Assembly (NCBI GenBank): GCA_947090755.1
Contig: CAMUPF010000005.1
Span: 1 to 64,000 of the forward strand
Length of the DNA stretch: 64,000 bases
Direction: 5' to 3'
Source: an uncultured Candidatus Melainabacteria bacterium
GTDB lineage: Bacteria; Cyanobacteriota; Vampirovibrionia; Gastranaerophilales; Gastranaerophilaceae
This document shows positions 3 through 52,486 of the stretch, one piece after another (within the stretch, counting starts at the first letter, position 1; every line of letters begins with the position of its first letter). The translations under genes were made by a program, and so were the position numbers. A model generated the notes under the pieces. It searched no databases and was not told the origin of the DNA. It saw only the letters and a program-made list of their open reading frames with translations.

Positions 3-1007
3 TCCGAGCTTGCGGACGACGTGAAAATTAACGCGAAGGGCGGAGAGCCGGCGGGTCATGGTTTCACAATGGCAGAGATACTTCTGTCATTAACAATAAT
101 CGGCGTGGTGGCTGCGATAACGCTTCCGTCGCTCACCGGTAACATTAACGAACGCACTTGGAACACGCAAAGAAAAGCGCTTTATGCAAGGATGTCACAG
201 GCAATAGCGCTAATGCCGGCACTTAATGGTTACGGAACCTTAACCGAGGGTAACGAATCTACGTCCGCTGTTGACACCGCTGCAGAAACTTTTGTCACAG
301 AAGGTCTTTCTAAAGTTCTCAAAATTAACAATATTTGCGACAGTGAACATCTTGAAGACTGTGGGATTCCTAAAAAGATAACGGATTTCTCCGGTGCTGT
401 CATTGAACAGGTGCCGCAAACTCTGGCTGCGTTGAATAATATGTTTTCCGGCAGTTATATAAACGGTGCAGGAACAAGTTTTAGTTATCACCAAATAGAT
501 ACAAAAGCCGCTGCGTTTGAAACACAAAACGGGGAAAGTCTTTTGGTTTATTATAATCCTTATTGTCAAGGTGCACTTAATGATGGTAATGAATATTATA
601 CGCAGGCATTGATGTGTGCAAATTTTGTCTATGATTTGAATGGAAATAAGGGGCCGAATACAGTCGGAAAGGATATAGGGTTTATGTCTGTTATTTATCC
701 GTCGGATAGTGTTGTTGTCGCTCCAAATCCGTTAAGAATCGTTATGGCTGATCAGTATAATGCAAGTGCTAAATGCAATGCCGTTGAAGATTCACGGGTT
801 GCAAACTTACAGGAATTAATGTCTATTTTTTATAACAGAACCTTGATTAATATGTCATATTTGCGCCAGCATAACGGCTTTTTGGTGTGGAGCAGCGGGA
901 TTGTGCCGGGGGATAGTACAAAAGCTTCCGGTCTGGATATGACCGTGGGGCGTTCACACTCATGGCCAAGGGTTAATGAAAATGGTGTAATCTGTGTTAA
1001 ACGTTAG
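3..1007 (+). CDS. Type IV pilin-like protein, copy A (5' end outside window)
   Basis: Surface or pseudopilus-type protein with a class III prepilin signal. The frame is open from base 3, so the true start and any G tract lie upstream of the window; a GTG at 21 is only an internal candidate. The cleavage site is HG|FTMAE, with Glu at mature position 5, followed by a hydrophobic helix. A central stretch contains the conserved YDLNGNKGPNTVGKDIGF loop, and the C-terminal domain ends in CVKR. Six cysteines sit at positions shared by all family members in the window and could form three disulfides. The first 100 residues match copies B-F nearly exactly. The C-terminal domain is the most divergent of the six and lacks the usual ESRLPN motif (it has DSRVAN). 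Confidence 0.85.
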   Translation, partial: SELADDVKINAKGGEPAGHGFTMAEILLSLTIIGVVAAITLPSLTGNINERTWNTQRKALYARMSQAIALMPALNGYGTLTEGNESTSAVDTAAETFVTEGLSKVLKINNICDSEHLEDCGIPKKITDFSGAVIEQVPQTLAALNNMFSGSYINGAGTSFSYHQIDTKAAAFETQNGESLLVYYNPYCQGALNDGNEYYTQALMCANFVYDLNGNKGPNTVGKDIGFMSVIYPSDSVVVAPNPLRIVMADQYNASAKCNAVEDSRVANLQELMSIFYNRTLINMSYLRQHNGFLVWSSGIVPGDSTKASGLDMTVGRSHSWPRVNENGVICVKR

Positions 1008-9320: not shown

Positions 9321-9356
9321 AAAATAGCGGCGGATTATGTTACCCGCCGCTATTTT
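9321..9356. terminator. Bidirectional terminator between secY and pilin copy B
   Basis: A perfect 13-bp stem, AAAATAGCGGCGG paired with its complement around a 10-base loop. The A-rich and T-rich flanks give a U run in both directions, so it can end secY on the plus strand and pilin copy B on the minus strand. Confidence 0.85.
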
Positions 9357-9366
9357 TATGGATTGA

Positions 9367-10302
9367 TTAACGTTTAATACACCAAACATAAGCTTGCTGT
9401 GTAGTTCTATTAAAATCATCACGTTCGCCATTGTCCAGTCGCTGTCCCCATCCAATGATGGAAGTAATATTAGAAGACGACCAACAGGTGCTAATTGTAC
9501 TGTTAGTTAATAATTTTCGGTTAATAAACATTGAAGCGAGTTCGTCTGCATTCGGTAGCCTGTATTCGCTGTCATAATCAGAGCATGCCTTTGATGCAGC
9601 AGTCCCAAAATATGTTCCGTTGAGAGCATTTACTGACGGATATGGCGCAACCAAGACGGCATCAAAAGGGTAAAGAGCAGTGATAAACCCTATATCTTTG
9701 CCCACAGTATTCGGTCCTTTATTGCCATTCAAATCGTATATGAAATTTGCACAAATTTTGGGCTGCATATAAAAACCACCACCTGAGCTTTCAGGATTTT
9801 CATTTAAACTACCAAGGCAGTACGGATTGTAAAAAACAGTAATGCTCTCACCATTCAGTGTTTCAAACGCTGCGGCTTTTGTATCAATTATAGAAAATCT
9901 ATCGTGTATATTGGAATAACTGCCAACCATATTGCTATTCAATTCCTGCATTGTATTTGGCATATCAATCTGTGAACCATTTAGTGCGGTTATCTTAGAT
10001 ACAACACCGCAATCGGCCAGATGTTCAGAGTCGCAAATGTTGTTAATTTTTAAAACTTTTGACAAACCTTCAGTTACAAAAGTTTCTGCTGCGGTGTCGA
10101 CGGCGGATGTGGAATCATTCCCCTCTATTAAAGTTCCATAACCATTCAGTGCAGGCATTAATGCTATCGCCTGCGACATACGGGCAAAAAGCGCTTTGCG
10201 CTGTGTGTTCCATGTGCGCTCGTTAATATTACCGGTAAGTGATGGCAGTGTTATCGCCGCAACAACGCCGATAATAGTTAATGATAGTAAAATCTCGGCC
10301 AT
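9367..10302 (-). CDS. Type IV pilin-like protein, copy B (out of frame with its start)
   Basis: Pilin body of the dispersed family. The prepilin helix begins A|FTMAEILLS; the N-terminal 100 residues match the other copies. The six conserved cysteines are present and the C-terminal lectin/FGE-like domain has 'EYRLPNADELASMF', 'CWSSSN' and a final CIKR. The coordinates cover the body from an in-frame ATG inside the helix signal. The likely real start is the ATG at 10378 with AGGAGG upstream, reading MKTHNLKTLNLWPSRV into a tract of 11 G. From that start 10 or 13 G would join the pilin frame; with 11 it reads TAA directly after the tract. As sequenced it is therefore silent, consistent with phase variation. 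Confidence 0.85.
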   Translation of the reverse strand: MAEILLSLTIIGVVAAITLPSLTGNINERTWNTQRKALFARMSQAIALMPALNGYGTLIEGNDSTSAVDTAAETFVTEGLSKVLKINNICDSEHLADCGVVSKITALNGSQIDMPNTMQELNSNMVGSYSNIHDRFSIIDTKAAAFETLNGESITVFYNPYCLGSLNENPESSGGGFYMQPKICANFIYDLNGNKGPNTVGKDIGFITALYPFDAVLVAPYPSVNALNGTYFGTAASKACSDYDSEYRLPNADELASMFINRKLLTNSTISTCWSSSNITSIIGWGQRLDNGERDDFNRTTQQAYVWCIKR

Positions 10303-10318
10303 GGTAAATGCAATCTTA

Positions 10319-10329
10319 CCCCCCCCCCC
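10319..10329 (-). repeat. Poly-G (11) tract in the start region of pilin copy B
   Basis: Eleven uninterrupted G on the coding (minus) strand, 16 codons after the ATG at 10378. Pilin frame requires a length of 10 or 13. An internal ATG upstream would need a multiple of 3. Neither register is satisfied at 11. Homopolymer lengths are prone to sequencing and assembly error. Confidence 0.9.
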
Positions 10330-10400
10330 TGACCCGAGATGGCCATAAATTCAGTGTTTTCAGGTTGTGTGTTTTCATTCAATCCTCCTTTTATTTTATT

Positions 10401-10429
10401 ATTATGAGGTTTTTTATGACTTTTGTCAA
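10401..10429 (-). promoter_or_regulatory. Promoter of pilin copy B
   Basis: Read on the minus strand: TTGACA, exactly 17 bases, CATAAT, then an AT-rich leader with AGGAGG before the ATG at 10378. Both hexamers and the spacing recur in copies C, D, E and F. The spacer lacks the AAACATGCTG core of copies C, E and F. The rest of the 10379-10681 gap holds the upstream region of the next plus-strand gene. Confidence 0.75.
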
Positions 10430-10681
10430 TATAAAATAATACTTTTGGATGCTATTTTATTTCGCAAATTTAGTGCTTTACGTCAAGGATATACCTTGAA
10501 AAAAAGGGTATTATCAAAATATACAAAATATCCTCAACTCTTCTGATTGCTCAGTCTATGCTCTTTTCTTTTTGAAAGGAGCTTTTTATTATCGCGGAAA
10601 TCCCTCGGGATTGTAATATTCGTTTACATTCACGCAAGAAAATTTTTTAGGAGTATTATATTATGTAAATCAGGAGAAAAT

Positions 10682-22018: not shown

Positions 22019-22068
22019 AAATAAAAAGAAAGGATCACGAAATGAAAAAGAATGTATTAAGTTTATGC

Positions 22069-22081
22069 GGGGGGGGGGGGG
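22069..22081 (+). repeat. Poly-G (13) tract in the start region of pilin copy C
   Basis: Thirteen G follow ATG-AAA-AAG... (MKKNVLSLC) that starts at 22042. Pilin frame needs 12 or 15. At 13 the reading goes GAG TTT TCT TAA, stopping four codons after the tract. Confidence 0.9.
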
Positions 22082-22114
22082 AGTTTTCTTAACCGCCCAT
22101 CAATAGCTTTTACC

Positions 22115-23065
22115 ATGGCGGAGATATTACTATCGCTCACAATCATCGGCGTGGTTGCGGCGATTACATTACCGAGTTTGACCGGCAATATTAACGAACG
22201 CACATGGAATACGCAGAGAAAAGCTTTATACGCCCGTATGTCACAGGCAATCGCTTTAATGCCGGCGTTGAACGGTTACGGAACATTGACCGAAGGCAAC
22301 GAGTCAACCTCTGCAGTAGACACGGCGGCTGAAACCTTCGTCACCGAAGGCCTAAGTGAAGTCCTTAAAATTAATAATATCTGTGACAGCGAACACCTTG
22401 CTGACTGCGGGATTCCGTCAACAATAAATACTTTGAATGCCTCAATAATAAGTATGCCTACAACTATGGAAGAGTTGAATCCGGAAATGGTTTCTGTGTT
22501 TGACGCTGATTATGGCGGTACTTCTTTGAACCTGATTAATACGAAAGCCACAGCATTTGAAACTCAAAATGGTGAAAGTTTGATCGTCTATTATAATCCG
22601 TCCTGCGTTGCAAATATGGGAGAAACTTCCCGCCATTTTGTACAACCTAAAATTTGTGCAAATATGATATACGATTTAAATGGTGCGAAAGGCCCGAATA
22701 CTGTTGGAAAAGATATTGGTTTCCTTTCGGTTTTGTATCCGTCTGATAGTTCAGTGGTTGCACCGGTTCCTTATAATCGTCTAATTAACGGATTTACGTC
22801 GGCGGAGGCTTCAAGGGCTTGTACGCAAAATGTTGGGGAAGAGTATAGATTGCCAACAAAAGATGAGTCCGTTTCCTTGTTTATTAACCGCCGGCTTCTT
22901 GGGTATGCCGCCAGTACTGGTGCTGAAGGCCATTGGTTTACCTCAAGCAAGTATTCAAATACAAGCGGTGCTGTTCGAAATTGGGTAATGGTTCAAGGCG
23001 TAGGGCAACTTAGAGTCGCAGATTCTGACAGCCAGTGGCATTCATTATGTGTAAAACGTTATTAA
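22115..23065 (+). CDS. Type IV pilin-like protein, copy C (out of frame with its start)
   Basis: Pilin body read from an in-frame ATG inside the helix signal. With the leader in register the product would start at 22042: MKKNVLSLC, a Gly run, SFLNRPSIA|FTMAEILL, with cleavage before Phe. The first 100 residues equal copy A except K82E and E96A, yet over half the codons differ silently. It has the conserved cysteines and the loop YDLNGAKGPNTVGKDIGF. The C-terminal domain 'EYRLPTKDESVSLF ... HWFTSSKYS' is among the most divergent, and the protein ends KRY instead of KR. 13 G places it off. It is a single-gene unit with its own promoter and terminator. Confidence 0.85.
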   Translation: MAEILLSLTIIGVVAAITLPSLTGNINERTWNTQRKALYARMSQAIALMPALNGYGTLTEGNESTSAVDTAAETFVTEGLSEVLKINNICDSEHLADCGIPSTINTLNASIISMPTTMEELNPEMVSVFDADYGGTSLNLINTKATAFETQNGESLIVYYNPSCVANMGETSRHFVQPKICANMIYDLNGAKGPNTVGKDIGFLSVLYPSDSSVVAPVPYNRLINGFTSAEASRACTQNVGEEYRLPTKDESVSLFINRRLLGYAASTGAEGHWFTSSKYSNTSGAVRNWVMVQGVGQLRVADSDSQWHSLCVKRY

Positions 23066-24803: not shown

Positions 24804-25498
24804 TGCGTTTTGATGTATTGACTCTATTTCCGGAAATTATTGAGTCTTACTGCAATGTGAGCATCATGAAACGCGCGCGTGAAAGCGAAGTTTTTTCTGT
24901 GAACACTGTAAATCCGCGTGATTTTACCCTTGATAAACACAAAAAAGTCGACGATACGCCTTATGGGGGTGGCGCAGGAATGGTTTTAATGCCTCAGCCG
25001 TATGTTGATGCGTATGAAAGCGTTCAGCGTATAGAAAATTCAGTTACGGTAATGCTTACACCGCAGGGAAAACCGTTGACCGATAGTGTTGTGAATGAAC
25101 TTGCAAAGTTTGACCAGATTGTCATGCTTTGCGGACATTATGAAGGGTTTGACGAACGGATAAGAGATATTATTAAACCGGTTGAGATTTCTGTGGGGGA
25201 TTTTGTTCTGACCGGCGGTGAATTGCCTGCGTTATGTCTGATTGACGCCGTAAGCCGAAAGATTGAAGGAACTCTGGGCAAGATTGAATCAGCGGATTAT
25301 GATACATTTTCTAACGGACTGATTGAGTATCCGCATTATACGAAACCGCGTGTGTATCGCGGGTTAGAGGTTCCGGAAGTACTTTTGAACGGGAATCATA
25401 AACTTATTGATGAGTTTCGTTTGCAGGAAAGCTTAAGGCGTACGAAGTCAAAACGCCCTGATTTATACGAAAAATATATGAACAAAACGCCGGACTAG
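24803..25498 (+). CDS. trmD: tRNA (guanine-37-N1)-methyltransferase
   Basis: Methylates G37 of tRNAs reading CNN/CCN/CGN codons and prevents frameshifts. SPOUT-fold signatures: 'RFDVLTLFPEII', 'DDTPYGGGAGMVLMPQP', 'LCGHYEGFDERI', 'EISVGDFVLTGGELPA' (knot region) and 'EYPHYTKPRVYRGLEVPEVLLNGNH'. 231 aa, normal. It is the last gene of the operon; rplS, a common next gene, is absent and pilin copy D converges on it 15 bases away, with no clear terminator between. Confidence 0.96.
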   Translation: MRFDVLTLFPEIIESYCNVSIMKRARESEVFSVNTVNPRDFTLDKHKKVDDTPYGGGAGMVLMPQPYVDAYESVQRIENSVTVMLTPQGKPLTDSVVNELAKFDQIVMLCGHYEGFDERIRDIIKPVEISVGDFVLTGGELPALCLIDAVSRKIEGTLGKIESADYDTFSNGLIEYPHYTKPRVYRGLEVPEVLLNGNHKLIDEFRLQESLRRTKSKRPDLYEKYMNKTPD

Positions 25499-25512
25499 CC
25501 GACGCTTTTAAT

Positions 25513-26544
25513 TTATCGTTTCACGCACCGAACGAATAAGGTATTGGACCTAGGATAAGGGATGCGGTTGCCTGTATTAAAAGTCTGATACCAAGCCGTG
25601 CCTGCCTCTCCGGAAGACATGACAGAGCTGGACCAAAAGGTTCCGGACGTAATACCAATGAGTTCACGGTTATAGAACATTGCACTAAGTTCATTAATAT
25701 TTGGAAGTCTGGATTCATTGTCCATGTTTGTGCATTCATTACCTGCTTCAGCTTGTTTTTTAGTACCCGAAACATTTTGTGCTAAGGGTACCGGAGCTAC
25801 TACAACTGGATCAGAAGGATAAAGTGCAGTAATAAATCCAATATCCTTACCAACCGTATTCGGTCCTTTGTTACCGTTTAAGTCATAGATGAAGTTAGCA
25901 CACATTTTAGGTTGTGAGTAATGCGCGTTAGTTTCTCCCATATCGCTTTGGCAGTATGGATTGTAGTAAACAGCAATGGATTCTCCGTTTTGAGTTTCAA
26001 ATGCAGCTGCAAAGGTGTTTATATCTTTTTGTGGATTTGTAAACTCTGTTCCTCCGCTGCCGTTCGGCCCATTATTGAATGTACTTGTAAATAAACTGTT
26101 CATTTCGCTTAATCTTGTCGGCCAAGTTTTTATGTTTCCGGCCAAGTTAGTGTAAGAAGTAACAATACCACAGTCTTCTAAATGTCCGTGGTCACAAATG
26201 TTGTTAATCTTGATTACCTTACTCAATCCTTCTGTGACGAAAGTTTCGGCGGCTGTGTCAACGGCGCTAGTAGAAGTCGCTTCGTCTGCGAGTTGATAAG
26301 TACCGTAACCGCTTAAAGACGGCATTAAAGTAAGTGCTTGCGAGAATCGTGCGTACAGAGCTTTTCGCTGAGTGTTCCACGTACGCTCATTAATATTGCC
26401 GGTCAGTGCCGGTAACGTTATGGCCGCAACCACACCGATAATCGTCAAGGACAGCAAAATTTCCGCCATTGTAAACGCGCGACGATACCCCCCCCCCCGA
26501 CTCAACAGGTCCATATTACAAGGGTTTTCAGATGTTGTGTTCAT
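25513..26544 (-). CDS. Type IV pilin-like protein, copy D (in frame: expressed state)
   Basis: The only complete copy in the window whose normal start is in frame with the pilin. From the ATG at 26544 (GGAGG upstream) it reads MNTTSENPCNMDLLSR, then Gly-Gly-Gly encoded by the 11-G tract, YRRA|FTMAEILL. Mature parts: N-terminal helix with Glu5; six conserved cysteines; loop YDLNGNKGPNTVGKDIGF; C-terminal lectin/FGE-like domain with ESRLPNINELSAMF, FWSSS and FVRCVKR. The N-terminal region differs from the others at a few residues (F for M in ARFSQ, TLMPSLSGYG). The tract is two residues upstream of the basic part of the leader, so slippage of one base would switch it off. Confidence 0.9.
   Translation of the reverse strand: MNTTSENPCNMDLLSRGGGYRRAFTMAEILLSLTIIGVVAAITLPALTGNINERTWNTQRKALYARFSQALTLMPSLSGYGTYQLADEATSTSAVDTAAETFVTEGLSKVIKINNICDHGHLEDCGIVTSYTNLAGNIKTWPTRLSEMNSLFTSTFNNGPNGSGGTEFTNPQKDINTFAAAFETQNGESIAVYYNPYCQSDMGETNAHYSQPKMCANFIYDLNGNKGPNTVGKDIGFITALYPSDPVVVAPVPLAQNVSGTKKQAEAGNECTNMDNESRLPNINELSAMFYNRELIGITSGTFWSSSVMSSGEAGTAWYQTFNTGNRIPYPRSNTLFVRCVKR
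26488..26498 (-). repeat. Poly-G (11) tract in the start region of pilin copy D
   Basis: Eleven G on the coding strand after codon AGT-C: CGG GGG GGG GGG TAT keeps the pilin frame. Lengths of 8, 11 or 14 are on; any other is off. Confidence 0.9.
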
Positions 26545-26572
26545 ATTATATACCTCCAATTCTTTCTTTTTT

Positions 26573-26601
26573 ATTATGAAATATTTTTAGCCTTCTGTCA
26601 A
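26573..26601 (-). promoter_or_regulatory. Promoter of pilin copy D
   Basis: Minus strand: TTGACA, 17 bases, CATAAT. The hexamers are identical to those of copies B and E. TTGACA lies 4 bases outside the stop of recO. Confidence 0.75.
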
Positions 26602-26604
26602 GGC

Positions 26605-27369
26605 TTAAATCGCGGCCAGAATTTCGGTTGTTCTGATTTTTCTTGCGCTATGCTGTTCTATACATTTTTTTAAAAGGTTGAAGCAGACCTCGCAAACCTT
26701 TTCAGTCGCTTTTGTTTCGTAATCTGTTACCGCACTGTAATCCGCTTGGGCAAGATAGTTTAGAAACTCGCGAATTTTGTTATGAATTACAAGTTTGCCG
26801 CGTGAATCGTTTATGCAATTCTCGCAAATAATTCCGCCCTCGTTGATTAGAAAATATGCGTTGGAATCTACTTTGCAGCCGCATTTCAGGCAGGTGTTAA
26901 ATTCCGGTGAGAATCCCGAAATATGCATTATTTTTAGTTGAAATTTTAAAACCGTAAGCAAAACATCTTTCTTTTCCGTTGCACAAGCAATGGCTTTTAG
27001 GGCATTGTATAGTGTATCGTAGGTGTCAGCCGCGCAAGGGTCGTTTTCAACTCCGAAGTTATTTACAACCTCTGTAAGGTACATTGAATAGAAAATTTTA
27101 TCCAGATCTTTCCTTGTATCGCCGAAAGAATTAAGGGTTTCAGCCTGTGATACAACATCAAGATTACGGCCCTTAGAAAGTAAAAGGTTGTTTGCAATAA
27201 AGGCTTCCATACGCGCACCAAGTGAACTTTTAGGCTTTTTGATTCCTTTTGCGACCGCGTGGATAATCCCTTTATCACGAGAATACATCACAATAATCTT
27301 GTCAGATTCTTTGAGCGGATAAGATTTCAGGTTTATGGCGTTGGTTGTGTATGTTTGCCTAGTTGTCAC
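26605..27369 (-). CDS. recO: DNA repair protein RecO
   Basis: Works with RecF/RecR to load RecA on gapped DNA. The N-terminal OB fold has 'TNAINLKSYPLKESDKIIVMYSRDKG' and 'GIKKPKSSLGARMEAF'; a helical C-terminal domain carries a four-cysteine zinc site, C-x2-C...C-x2-C ('CLKCGC', 'ICENC'). 254 aa, normal. It overlaps the upstream pilT by 11 bases and is co-transcribed with it. The stop lies only 4 bases from the pilin D -35. Confidence 0.9.
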   Translation of the reverse strand: MTTRQTYTTNAINLKSYPLKESDKIIVMYSRDKGIIHAVAKGIKKPKSSLGARMEAFIANNLLLSKGRNLDVVSQAETLNSFGDTRKDLDKIFYSMYLTEVVNNFGVENDPCAADTYDTLYNALKAIACATEKKDVLLTVLKFQLKIMHISGFSPEFNTCLKCGCKVDSNAYFLINEGGIICENCINDSRGKLVIHNKIREFLNYLAQADYSAVTDYETKATEKVCEVCFNLLKKCIEQHSARKIRTTEILAAI

Positions 27370-28489
27370 GTGAAACTCCGTGGTACATACCTCTTAGCAT
27401 TTGCTGAAGTTCGTTTTTATTGTCTGAATATTCTACCGCGTCTTCGGCCGAGATTATTCCGGCCTTGTGCAACTGGAATAATGAGGTATTCATAGTAATC
27501 ATCTGGTTGAAAGAGCCTGCTTTTACGAGCGAATAAATGCTTTCGATTTCTTCTTTAATAATAAGGTCGCGGATAGTTGAAGTTACAACAAGAAGTTCGC
27601 AGGCCGGCCGTCTGGAATTGCCGTCGATTGTTGGTACAAGTTTTTGTGCCAAAGTTGCTCTTAAGGTTGAAGCAAGCTGTTGGCGCAGGAATGGACGTTG
27701 TTCCGGATCAAACATGTTAATAATACGGTTAATTGTTTGAACCGCGTCGTTTGTGTGGAGTGTTGAAAACACGAGGTGTCCGGTTTCTGCGGCTTTTAAC
27801 GCTGCGTTAAGCGTTTCAATGTCGCGAATTTCGCCGATGAAGATTATATCAGGGTCTTGGCGGAGTGCGTATTTTACACCGCTTGAAAAACTTTCTGTAT
27901 CGAATTCAACCTGACGTTGGGAAATTGCACATTTTTTATTTGTGAACACAAATTCTACAGGGTCTTCAATTGATATAATATGTTTTTGCTGTGTTTTGTT
28001 TATGTAATCAATAATGGAGGCAAGTGTGGTAGATTTACCGGAGCCCGTAGGGCCTGTAACCAGAACAAGACCGTTATTGTAATCCGCGAAGCTTGTAACC
28101 GCCGGCGGAAGATGTAATTCTTCAATATCTACCGGCTCAGAAGGAATTACGCGGATAACCATACCTTTCTGGTACATTCTGCTGCAAACGTTAACACGAA
28201 ATCTTGATACCCCTTCAATTTCGTAACAAAAGTCAAAGTCGTTGGAGGTTTCCATTTTTATCGCAAAGTGCTTAGGAAGTGTTTGAACCGGCAGGATTTG
28301 TCTGATTGAAGCCAGTATTATGTCTTCGGAAAGTACAGGATAATTTTCAGCCTGTTCGATTTTGCCGTTTTTTCTGTATATCGGGTGCGAACCGGCCATT
28401 AAATGCACATCGGAAACTCCAAATTTAACCATTTCTTCAAGGCATTCATTTATCTCAAATATATCGTGTTTTACTAATTCCTGTTCCAA
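27359..28489 (-). CDS. pilT: Type IV pilus retraction ATPase PilT
   Basis: Hexameric cytoplasmic ATPase that depolymerises type IV pili, giving twitching motility. N-terminal PAS-like domain with 'GVSDVHLMAGSHPIYRKNG'; Walker A GPTGSGKST; Asp box 'IISIEDPVEFV'; Walker B 'PDIIFIGEIRD'; His box 'FSTLHTNDA'. The PilT-specific 'GxIxxxDA' tail segment reads AGIISAEDA. 376 aa, slightly longer than E. coli-type PilT. It shows that a retractable type IV pilus exists, giving the dispersed pilin-like proteins a machine to use. No pilB, pilC or pilQ in the window. Confidence 0.9.
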   Translation of the reverse strand: MEQELVKHDIFEINECLEEMVKFGVSDVHLMAGSHPIYRKNGKIEQAENYPVLSEDIILASIRQILPVQTLPKHFAIKMETSNDFDFCYEIEGVSRFRVNVCSRMYQKGMVIRVIPSEPVDIEELHLPPAVTSFADYNNGLVLVTGPTGSGKSTTLASIIDYINKTQQKHIISIEDPVEFVFTNKKCAISQRQVEFDTESFSSGVKYALRQDPDIIFIGEIRDIETLNAALKAAETGHLVFSTLHTNDAVQTINRIINMFDPEQRPFLRQQLASTLRATLAQKLVPTIDGNSRRPACELLVVTSTIRDLIIKEEIESIYSLVKAGSFNQMITMNTSLFQLHKAGIISAEDAVEYSDNKNELQQMLRGMYHGVSRDN

Positions 28490-35945: not shown

Positions 35946-36031
35946 ATCTCCTACCTCTTATTACGTATTCAATACTACTATTATAAGTTATAAAGATAAA
36001 TTCTCAAGGTAAATTTATTATTTCTTAACTA

Positions 36032-36060
36032 TTGACATGTATAGAAACATGCTGCATAAT
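36032..36060 (+). promoter_or_regulatory. Promoter of pilin copy E
   Basis: TTGACA, 17 bases, CATAAT, with spacer ending GAAACATGCTG as in copy C; it is the best match to the family consensus. AAGAAAGGAAGGG lies between it and the ATG at 36089. Confidence 0.8.
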
Positions 36061-36121
36061 GAGAGTATATAAGAAAGGAAGGGTAAAAATGAAAAAACAT
36101 AGCAATGTCTTAACATGGACA

Positions 36122-36134
36122 GGGGGGGGGGGGG
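36122..36134 (+). repeat. Poly-G (13) tract in the start region of pilin copy E
   Basis: Thirteen G follow the 11 codons MKKHSNVLTWT from the ATG at 36089. The pilin frame needs 12 or 15. At 13 the reading continues 16 codons to a TGA at 36180. Confidence 0.9.
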
Positions 36135-36156
36135 AGCAAGCTGAGCAGAGCCACGA

Positions 36157-36196
36157 GCATAACTCCGCGAGCGACCATTGAATTGCGGAGTTATGC
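36157..36196. repeat. Inverted repeat inside the leader of pilin copy E
   Basis: A perfect 12-bp inverted repeat, GCATAACTCCGC ... GCGGAGTTATGC, around a 16-base loop, lies 22 bases after the G tract. The surrounding 160 bases are far more GC-rich than the rest of the window and look like an inserted repeat element, yet they keep the pilin frame open. Confidence 0.65.
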
Positions 36197-37232
36197 GAGA
36201 GTCGAGCGCGCGACGGGCAAGACCGCGCTCTTGCCTGCAAGCGCGAGCGTTGGCGTTTTACGCGAAGCGCAGTACCCACGTTGCGCATTCACTATGGCAG
36301 AAATCCTTCTATCCCTAACAATCATCGGCGTGGTTGCGGCGATAACTTTACCGTCGCTGACAGGAAACATAAATGAGCGCACATGGAACACCCAGCGCAG
36401 AGCCCTTTATGCCCGTATGTCGCAGGCGATAGCTTTAATGCCTGCTTTAAACGGATACGGAACATTCGATGCCGGAAATGAGTCAACATCCGCTGTAGAC
36501 ACAGCCGCTGAAACGTTTGTCACAGAAGGCCTGTCTAAAGTTCTAAAAATTAACAATATTTGCGACGCCGACCATCTTGCTGATTGCGGAATTCCTTCAA
36601 CTATCACGAATATTGCGGGAACAAGTCAGATTTCACCGTTCCCTACAAAGATTAGCGAATGGAATCCTGCGTTTACCGAATCTGTTATTTATAATAGTAC
36701 TACGACTTATCAAAACCCGTTGAAAGATATCGATACAAAAGCCGCTGCGTTTGAAACCCAAAATGGTGAAAGTATTGCGGTTTTTTATAATCCTTATTGC
36801 GCTTCAGATTCAAGTGAAATGTTTTATTATGCACAACCTTTAATGTGTGCTAATTTTATATATGATTTAAACGGAAACAAAGGCCCGAACACAGTTGGTA
36901 AAGATATCGGGTTCATGACCGCGCTTTATCCGTCTGATTCTGTTGTTGTCGCTCCGGTACCGCTTGCACGTAAAGCCGGAGATACAAACCATATCAACGC
37001 TCTTGTTATGTGTAAAAATCAGGATTCTGAAAGCAGACTGCCTAATCGTGATGAATTAAGTTCTATGTTTTATAACCAATCGCTGATGGGAATTTCAGGC
37101 GGATATTTCTGGTCCAGTTCTGTTATTACCCCGGGGGCAGACGGTAGGGCTTGGGCTCAATTCTTTGATACCGGTCACAGAAACGCCCATCCGCGTCGAA
37201 ATGCCCCTGTTGTATGGTGTGTAAAACGTTAA
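36183..37232 (+). CDS. Type IV pilin-like protein, copy E (out of frame with its start)
   Basis: Pilin body. The coordinates start at an alternative TTG inside the leader; the pilin frame is actually open back to the G tract. With 12 or 15 G the product from 36089 would carry a leader of about 65 residues before A|FTMAEILL, far longer than usual prepilin leaders; much of it is encoded by a GC-rich palindromic insert. Six conserved cysteines and the YDLNGNKGPNTVGKDIGF loop are present. The C-terminal domain (ESRLPNRDELSSMF, YFWSSS, VVWCVKR) is closest to copy D. 13 G places it off. It has its own promoter and terminator. Confidence 0.85.
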   Translation: MRSYARVERATGKTALLPASASVGVLREAQYPRCAFTMAEILLSLTIIGVVAAITLPSLTGNINERTWNTQRRALYARMSQAIALMPALNGYGTFDAGNESTSAVDTAAETFVTEGLSKVLKINNICDADHLADCGIPSTITNIAGTSQISPFPTKISEWNPAFTESVIYNSTTTYQNPLKDIDTKAAAFETQNGESIAVFYNPYCASDSSEMFYYAQPLMCANFIYDLNGNKGPNTVGKDIGFMTALYPSDSVVVAPVPLARKAGDTNHINALVMCKNQDSESRLPNRDELSSMFYNQSLMGISGGYFWSSSVITPGADGRAWAQFFDTGHRNAHPRRNAPVVWCVKR

Positions 37233-37237
37233 TAAAA

Positions 37238-37262
37238 AAGCCCGATTTCGGGCTTTTTTTTT
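37238..37262. terminator. Terminator between pilin copy E and the efflux operon
   Basis: The GCCCG/CGGGC hairpin with loop ATTT is flanked by A6 on the left and T9 on the right, so it can serve pilin E on the plus strand and the tolC-like gene on the minus strand. Confidence 0.85.
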
Positions 37263-51293: not shown

Positions 51294-51343
51294 AATTTTA
51301 TAAAGAAAGGATGAGATTATGAAAAAACTTAATGTATTAACTT

Positions 51344-52486
51344 ATGCAGGGGGGGGGGGGGCCGGCTGAGCCGGTTCTATCTTTGGCCCCGAGCGACTGG
51401 ACGACGCAGAATGTGAGAAAAACTGAGCAGGCTCTATATTGTCATGCTGAACTTGTTTCAGCATCTGTCCAATGTAACCGTAAGAGCGTAACGCCGGACA
51501 GATCTCGAAATAAATTCGGGATGACGGTTATGGGATTTACGATGGCGGAAATATTGTTGTCGTTGACAATCATCGGCGTAGTCGCGGCGATAACGCTTCC
51601 TTCGCTGACCGGCAACATTAACGAGCGCACATGGAATACCCAGCGCAAGGCGCTTTACGCTCGTATGAGTCAGGCAATTGCGCTAATGCCTGCTTTGAAT
51701 GGTTACGGAACATTAACCGGAACATTCGGCGAGAGCGGTTCTCAGTCTGTAACCGAGGATACCGCCGCGGAAACTTTTATTACGGATGGCCTTGCAAAAG
51801 TCCTCAAAATTAACAACATTTGTGACAGCGACCATCTGGCAGATTGCGGGCTTGCCTCTAATATCACGACTTTAGCCGGAAACAGTATGTCAATGCCGAA
51901 TACTTTTGGGACATTAAATAAGTATTTTACTTATGCTGTAGGTTCTAGTCCGTCATATTCCTATAGTGCTCTTGATACAAAAGCAGCAGCTTTTGAAACG
52001 TCAAATGGTGAATCAATTTTAGTATTTTACAATCCTAATTGTATCATGTCGCTAAATCAGGAGAGCGGTTCGGATGATGATTGGCTTACCCAGCCTTATA
52101 TTTGTGCAAATTTTTTATATGACTTGAACGGCAATAAAGGGCCTAATACAGTTGGTAAGGATATTGGAGTTATAAGTGCGATGTATCCGTCAGACACGGT
52201 TGTTGTTGCGCCAAATCCGCTATTAAGAAATGCTGATGATGTTTTTGAACACCGTGATGCGCCTGCTGCTTGTACAAGTTTTGATTCTGAATCGCGCATG
52301 CCTAATATAGAAGAATTAATCTCTCTGTTTATCAATCAATATTTATTTGATTTGAAATCAAATCCGGGCGTGTGGTCGTCAACCCTTGCCTCTGCTGATA
52401 AAGCTTATGCTGTCGGCATAGGAAGCGGAAGAAAAATTCGTTATTTACGCTCCAGCAAATTGAATGTTCGTTGTATTAAACGTTAA
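51344..52486 (+). CDS. Type IV pilin-like protein, copy F (start out of frame; internal ATG in frame)
   Basis: Pilin body with a long leader. From an internal ATG at 51344, which has no ribosome site, it reads MQGGGGPAEP... to MG|FTMAEILL, so cleavage is after the canonical Gly. The intended start at 51319 (AAAGGATGAG upstream) is out of frame at 13 G. The leader of about 60 residues includes a translated palindromic repeat, read as 'CHAELVSAS ... RNKFGMT'. The mature part carries six conserved cysteines, an insertion relative to the other copies around GTLTGTFGESG, and a C-terminal domain with ESRMPNIEELISLF, VWSS and VRCIKR. It has its own promoter and terminator. Confidence 0.85.
   Translation: MQGGGGPAEPVLSLAPSDWTTQNVRKTEQALYCHAELVSASVQCNRKSVTPDRSRNKFGMTVMGFTMAEILLSLTIIGVVAAITLPSLTGNINERTWNTQRKALYARMSQAIALMPALNGYGTLTGTFGESGSQSVTEDTAAETFITDGLAKVLKINNICDSDHLADCGLASNITTLAGNSMSMPNTFGTLNKYFTYAVGSSPSYSYSALDTKAAAFETSNGESILVFYNPNCIMSLNQESGSDDDWLTQPYICANFLYDLNGNKGPNTVGKDIGVISAMYPSDTVVVAPNPLLRNADDVFEHRDAPAACTSFDSESRMPNIEELISLFINQYLFDLKSNPGVWSSTLASADKAYAVGIGSGRKIRYLRSSKLNVRCIKR
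51349..51361 (+). repeat. Poly-G (13) tract in the start region of pilin copy F
   Basis: Thirteen G follow MKKLNVLTYA from the ATG at 51319. The pilin frame needs 12 or 15 from that start; at 13 it stops at TGA two codons on. An internal ATG at 51344, in another frame, reads through to the pilin at exactly 13. Confidence 0.9.
51440..51526. repeat. Palindromic repeat element inserted in the pilin F leader
   Basis: GTCAT at 51441 and ATGAC at 51521 form the ends. Inside are ATGCTGAA/TTCAGCAT and ATCTGTCC/GGACAGAT inverted repeats. Translations of this type of element ('CHAELVSAS', 'RNKFGMT') recur in unrelated bacterial genomes as products of dispersed palindromic elements. Here the insert lies in the pilin frame without a stop. 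Confidence 0.75.

Follow-up and report, generated by a model that had tools for sequence, protein, structure and literature searches.

Poly-G contingency loci are known from the PilC tip adhesin of Neisseria and from surface genes of Campylobacter and Helicobacter. The Legionella protein Lcl, a collagen-like adhesin, has no pilin N-terminus. Diversity-generating retroelements (DGRs) act most often on DUF1566 domains, and a survey also mentions pilin-like targets of this type (PMC6642488). Among experimentally studied proteins, PilC of S. sanguinis comes closest to the pilin-lectin architecture described below; it is a lectin-bearing minor pilin that binds host glycans (PMC9934059). Each of the three elements, DGR, lectin-like pilin, and poly-G contingency gene, has precedents, and their combination in one family is absent from the literature searched. 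In the open-access literature searched we found no family that joins a DGR to phase variation, and no description of a DGR from Gastranaerophilales.

We analyzed a window of 64,000 nucleotides from an uncultured Candidatus Melainabacteria bacterium, whose genome (G000) comprises 1.78 Mb in 53 contigs, together with six other species of its genus (G001 to G006). Residues 235-314 of a 314-amino-acid mature protein, together with its stop codon, are encoded by the segment at 36990-37232 (+). In our view this segment quite likely specifies the part of a modular type IV pilin that binds the receptor, and the pilin would belong to a repertoire of ~120 copies diversified by a DGR and by poly-G switching. 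As in poly-G contingency loci, a surface-protein gene contains close to its start a G tract at which slippage would shift the frame; what sets the family apart is that the tract occurs in far more of its members and that the family would be fed by a DGR. The system resembles the DGRs with DUF1566/CLec targets in its RT, Avd, template (TR), and variable region (VR), in its adenine-specific substitutions, in having several VRs per TR, and in the C-terminal position of the VR in a DUF1566/Lcl_C protein (PMC6642488). In contrast to the surveyed DGRs, its target is one of ~120 dispersed prepilins, of which nearly all lack a homing tail and most have their own promoter and poly-G tract (PMC6642488). 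With PilC of S. sanguinis it shares a pilin moiety, a C-terminal lectin module, and a proposed role as tip adhesin, whereas the lectin of PilC is ConA-like and not a C-type-lectin-like domain (CTLD), PilC is a single gene without a repertoire, and the part of the report considered mentions neither a DGR nor poly-G (PMC9934059).

The prepilin-Lcl_C gene with its mature part at window positions 36288-37232 (+) is called the 36-kb copy, and residue numbers refer to its mature protein. Its features were the following, with the basis of each in parentheses.

36032..36060 (+): promoter-like TTGACA-17-CATAAT (sequence)
36071..36083 (+): purine-rich ribosome-binding site (sequence)
36089..36121 (+): ATG and short leader MKKHSNVLTWT (sequence; equivalent ribosome-binding site, ATG, and leader in other copies)
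36122..36134 (+): poly-G tract of 13 G (sequence)
36288..36437 (+): predicted type IV pilin N-terminal helix, FTMAEILLSLTIIGVVAAITLP, Glu5, residues 1-50 (family conservation, weak profile match, model)
36591..36743 (+): second variable region, residues 102-152 (mean pairwise identity 0.29)
36894..37232 (+): C-type-lectin-like Lcl_C domain, residues about 203-314, and stop (AlphaFold2 model, structure matches, Pfam)
37104..37229 (+): homologue of the variable region of the DGR template, residues 273-314 (TR comparison)
37235..37262 (+): terminator hairpin and T run (sequence)

The 3′ end of the gene reads AAACGT TAA and is followed by the terminator. At the N-terminus, FTMAEILLSLTIIGVVAAITLP with F1 and E5 was invariant or nearly so in 108 full-length copies, and the AlphaFold2 model of the 36-kb copy placed helices at residues 4-18 and 28-50. 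Profile matches in this part were weak and below the cut-offs, both for Pfam N_methyl (17.6 bits on the 36-kb copy) and for GspG/GspH. As predicted from sequence, the N-terminus of the protein is a type IV pilin helix.

A sequence-only reading of the C-terminal segment had proposed a C-type-lectin-like fold of the DUF1566 group, and the AlphaFold2 model of the protein (pLDDT 90.6, pTM 0.87) bears this out. In the Foldseek match lists, which cover mainly residues 203-314, the best match was the C-terminal domain of Legionella Lcl (8q4e), which has the same fold (Z 9.8, rmsd 1.4 over 90 residues, 22% identity). The C-terminal domain of Bd2740 from the predatory bacterium Bdellovibrio was second, and C-type lectins ranked after the Lcl domain. 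In Pfam, Lcl_C (PF07603, formerly DUF1566) matched 64 of the 108 full-length copies at E≤0.01; the 36-kb copy itself reached 25 bits and thus stayed below the curated cut-off of 34.9. The additional label "FGE-like" was dropped, as the FGE-sulfatase family (PF03781) had no match anywhere in the genome at E≤0.001.

The same reading had described a fixed scaffold around a variable core. Eleven residues (C242, R250, E256, F261, N263, L266, S277, G296, C311, K313, and R314) were invariant in all six window copies, and C242 and C311 were kept in 108/108 full-length copies of the genome. The claim that all copies end alike holds for this scaffold; the motif as it had been spelled was too strict: SRLPN occurs exactly only in the 36-kb copy and in the copy at 25 kb, and the other four copies have SRMPN, EYRLPN, EYRLPT, and SRVAN. 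Across the 108 copies, mean pairwise identity fell from 0.95 in residues 1-60 to 0.48 in the CTLD scaffold (242-266) and 0.25 in residues 273-314. Variation in the family is concentrated in certain stretches and far exceeds chance. Residues 102-152 form a second variable stretch with a mean pairwise identity of 0.29; of the two stretches only 273-314 corresponds to the DGR template, and residues 102-152 (36591-36743 and the equivalents in other copies) lie outside it. The variable residues of the 36-kb protein (273, 290, 292, 294, 297, 299, 301, 305, 307, and 308) alternate i, i+2 on the neighboring strands 287-292 and 297-302. This alternation implies that they would share one clustered face, in line with the clustering anticipated by the sequence-only reading.

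Six full-length copies of the family were present in the window (ON, in frame; G-1, tract shorter by one G). The family search delimited them at 3-1007 (+), 9367-10350 (-), 22061-23065 (+), 25513-26586 (-), 36114-37232 (+), and 51341-52486 (+); for the copies with a tract, the entries below give the annotated extents.

3..1007 (+): family copy, leader cut by the contig start (family search)
9367..10378 (-): family copy adjoining secY; poly-G of 11 at 10319-10329, ON at G-1 (family and frame scoring)
22042..23065 (+): family copy; poly-G of 13 at 22069-22081, ON at G-1 (family and frame scoring)
25513..26544 (-): family copy adjoining trmD, called the 25-kb copy; poly-G of 11 at 26488-26498, ON (family and frame scoring)
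36114..37232 (+): family copy, the 36-kb copy (family search)
51319..52486 (+): family copy; poly-G of 13 at 51349-51361, ON at G-1 (family and frame scoring)

The whole genome contained about 120 prepilin-Lcl_C copies (135 matches in one count, about 122 in another), 108 of them full-length; because the assembly breaks at copies or within VRs, the copy number may be underestimated, and some leaders are missing. With ~102 kb of mature coding sequence, the 108 full-length copies take up nearly 6% of the genome. Copy number was 89-115 in five sister species and 6 in the remaining one. Other genera of the order had almost no copies, and one other genus of the family gave 24 weak matches. Recent gene conversion was rejected as the source of the uniform N-terminus, since identity at fourfold sites was just 0.40 though protein identity was 0.95. 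Contigs of the genome often break at family copies or inside VRs, for example C1, C15, C19, C30, and C38.

One of these contigs, C19, which lies outside the window, carried within positions 1-2492 a VR at the contig start, avd (555-923), the TR (1090-1227), and an RT gene (1287-2492). Of the target gene on C19 the VR alone is present, the remainder being unassembled in this genome. The order target prepilin (where assembled), avd, TR, and RT was syntenic in 7/7 genomes, and the cassette was followed by the same TPR gene in the genomes where this was tested. The RT matched RVT_1 with 58.7 bits, contained the motifs GLPIGNLTSQ and YVDD, and had as its best match among solved structures 8ub7 (1.6e-41), which we take to be a phage DGR RT; its close relatives were Candidatus Gastranaerophilales or Melainabacteria records and a few mislabelled ones, which makes a Gastranaerophilales metagenome assembly the most likely source of the window. 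Avd scored 48.3 bits against Pfam bAvd (cut-off 40) and 45 bits against NCBIfam DivGenRetAVD, under the 80-bit cut-off of that model. A hairpin with a z of -3.3 was found 3′ of the linked VR.

Mismatches between the linked VR and the TR affected 14/30 adenines but 0/102 other bases in G000 (p=5e-11). The corresponding values were 9/30 and 1/99 in G001, 10/30 and 0/99 in G003, 19/38 and 1/97 in G005, and 9/30 and 0/108 in G006, so that mismatches were almost adenine-only in 5 of the 6 readable pairs; G004 was excluded because its VR is unreadable (N). In G002 the linked VR equals the TR over 138 bases with zero mismatches, which looks like fresh copying without mutation. Judged from RT, Avd, and the adenine-specific TR/VR pair, the predicted C19 system is a diversity-generating retroelement. 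Two other RTs were rejected as the DGR of this family, as TR-like sequence was found only at C19: the RT on C16 lies next to an endolysin-like gene in a prophage-like setting, and the RT on C11 is retron type VI-like. The RT on C16 is preceded by a small ORF of about the size of Avd, for which a family match was sought and not found.

The translation of the TR is NFWSGSVISSGESGTAWNQNFNTGNRNPNTRSNGNNVRCVRR. Its Asn codons 21, 23, 25, 28, 30, and 32 correspond to the variable pairs Y/A, T/F, N/D, N/H, I/N, and Y/H, the six that the sequence-only reading had listed between WSSS and the last cysteine. Among the 108 paralogues, entropy was 3.80 bits at TR-Asn codons versus 2.39 bits at codons without A (p=4e-5). 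Several dispersed VRs differed from the TR mostly or only at adenines: in C30 mismatches affected 15/29 adenines and 0/100 other bases, in C15:38038 14/29 and 1/99, and in C21 14/29 and 5/98. Beyond the linked VR and those of C30 and C15:38038, further copies of the genome formed a graded series with 6, 5, 10, 14, 10, 17, 22, and 24 non-adenine mismatches. The VR of the 25-kb copy (77% identical to the TR; mismatches at 12/29 adenines and 17/98 other bases) is part of this series. In the case of the 36-kb copy, 8 of the 10 Asn codons of the TR were changed compared with 11 of the 30 other codons (p=0.028), and 14 more of these 30 differed synonymously.

The 3′ homing sequence in common with the TR, CCGCCGCTAGGTCGGTGGGGCG, was kept past the stop codon only in the VRs of C19 and C30 among the copies compared; the others end with lysine-arginine, a stop codon, and their own terminator, and in the 36-kb copy the tail was looked for and is absent. 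As this copy is too diverged from the TR and has no homing tail, it is probably not a live target or current substrate of the DGR and is probably frozen. A direct DGR origin is not demonstrable for a copy whose VR is not near-identical to the TR and whose tail is absent; we infer that the DGR acted on it in the past and that it would be a frozen descendant of DGR-made variation.

All three window copies that were tested, at the grpE-tolC, trmD, and secY sites, were missing from the same site in sister species. The absent segment runs from the -35 box of the promoter to about the terminator, roughly 1.1-1.2 kb.

36029-37232 (+): promoter-to-terminator unit of the 36-kb copy, absent in sisters (sister comparison)
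25478-26604 (-): promoter-to-terminator unit of the 25-kb copy, absent in sisters (sister comparison)
9325-10432 (-): promoter-to-terminator unit of the secY-adjacent copy, absent in sisters (sister comparison)

The 36-kb copy sits between grpE and tolC, which in five sister species are separated by about 100-300 bases without a pilin; in G005 grpE does not adjoin tolC, and no pilin is found there either. Homology with the sister gaps ends at 36028-36033, the left edge of the absent segment, at the promoter of the 36-kb copy. The 25-kb copy was missing in 6/6 sister species and the secY-adjacent copy in at least four, the other two having different sequence there. At a site after the TPR gene the situation is reversed, being filled in sister species and empty in G000. 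No transposase was seen at the units, and no obvious target duplication. An orthologue of the 36-kb copy at the same site was rejected for all six sister species, and so was a close orthologue anywhere in the genus: no match exceeded 71% in the same genome or 67% in a sister, as against TolC, which reaches 87-92% in the five nearest sisters.

A poly-G run, mostly of 11-13, lay between the start codon and the pilin in nearly all copies whose leader is intact, and the start codons before the tracts have a good ribosome-binding site. In 553 kb of the genome, 83 of 88 G runs of at least 9 lay just upstream of a copy and on its strand, and three of the other five belong, judged by position, to copies that a contig end truncates or that the search motif did not catch. 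In the window, 5/5 G/C runs of at least 8 were family-copy leaders. Frame scoring of the same 553 kb, on tract lengths that are those of the assembled consensus, gave 12 copies ON and 58 ON after a one-G change, 10 copies that are out of frame with each of G-1, G, and G+1, and 3 in which no start was clear. The 36-kb copy with its 13 G is out of frame and meets a stop in the leader after 30 codons; 12 or 15 G would join its ATG to the pilin. No poly-G tracts were found in the copies examined from the early-branching G005, and some copies near the DGR are without poly-G, e.g., in G002 and G005. We infer from the leader sequences that slippage should switch most copies ON and OFF.

In the mechanism that we propose, a pilin helix carrying a C-type-lectin-like domain would form the receptor-binding end, and one TR, Avd, and RT per genome would rewrite the VR of the linked target prepilin by adenine-specific mutagenic homing. 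DGR-made VRs would now reside in dispersed copies, graded from adenine-only differences to highly diverged ones, and most of these copies may have lost the homing tail, which would retain the variant. Most copies would be separate promoter-to-terminator units with poly-G between start codon and pilin, and slipped-strand changes would switch each on its own, with a small and shifting subset in frame. For the further step, in which the DGR mints binding sites in a donor pilin and phase-variable units spread to >100 sites, shed the tail, and form a poly-G-switched archive, our support is tentative and falls a little short of an even judgment. If true, hypermutation, archive, and switching would be united in one surface-variation system. 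The locus makes it possible to ask how an uncultured lineage common in animal guts, non-photosynthetic relatives of Cyanobacteria, may keep altering the surface of its cells, and whether the products of a DGR can persist as an archive away from the homing site.

The dispersed copies might instead never have been DGR targets, forming an ordinary expanded pilin-adhesin family shaped by point mutation and positive selection, with only the linked copy of each genome as target. Selection alone could vary the loop-face positions of a CTLD, most copies including that at 36 kb are far from the TR and lack the homing tail, the fourfold-site identity of only 0.40 indicates that the copies are old, and the variable region 102-152 falls outside the TR. 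We nevertheless regard this explanation as rather unlikely, given that the VRs in C30, C15:38038, and C21 differ from the TR mostly or only at adenines and lead in a smooth series to the 25-kb copy, and that variable positions match TR Asn codons family-wide. Another explanation, a static adhesin family in which the G tracts are Gly-rich linkers or assembly noise, could draw on the GGGG that the tract of the 36-kb copy encodes when in frame and on the homopolymer lengths of metagenome consensus sequences, which can be one off. It appears improbable: exactly one G puts the start codon out of frame in 58 of 80 scored copies, a shift incompatible with a selected linker; where only 10-27 nt lie between tract and pilin, there is no other proper start; and poly-G tracts recur at copies of several other, independently assembled species of the genus.

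A different question is what a diversified, poly-G-switched repertoire would bind. From their predicted architecture the family proteins may be binders displayed at the pilus tip, with gut ligands such as host or microbial glycans or the surfaces of phage or prey as possible partners. Recognition of predator or prey, phage, or contacting bacteria, in place of host-glycan adhesion or immune escape, would fit the variable faces of CTLDs, which bind proteins as well as glycans, and the second-best structure match, the Bd2740 domain, which comes from a predator. Legionella Lcl, which is described as glycosaminoglycan-binding, points the other way. So does the host-glycan binding of the modular pilin PilC of S. 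sanguinis (PMC9934059). We give the contact-recognition alternative a minor share of the probability. As to the pilus machinery, one component is encoded in the window itself.

27359..28489 (-): PilT-family type 4a pilus ATPase (TIGR01420, 407 bits, cut-off 319)

This ATPase is expected to belong to the machinery that handles these pilins. A prepilin peptidase is also present in the genome, with a PF01478 match above the cut-off.
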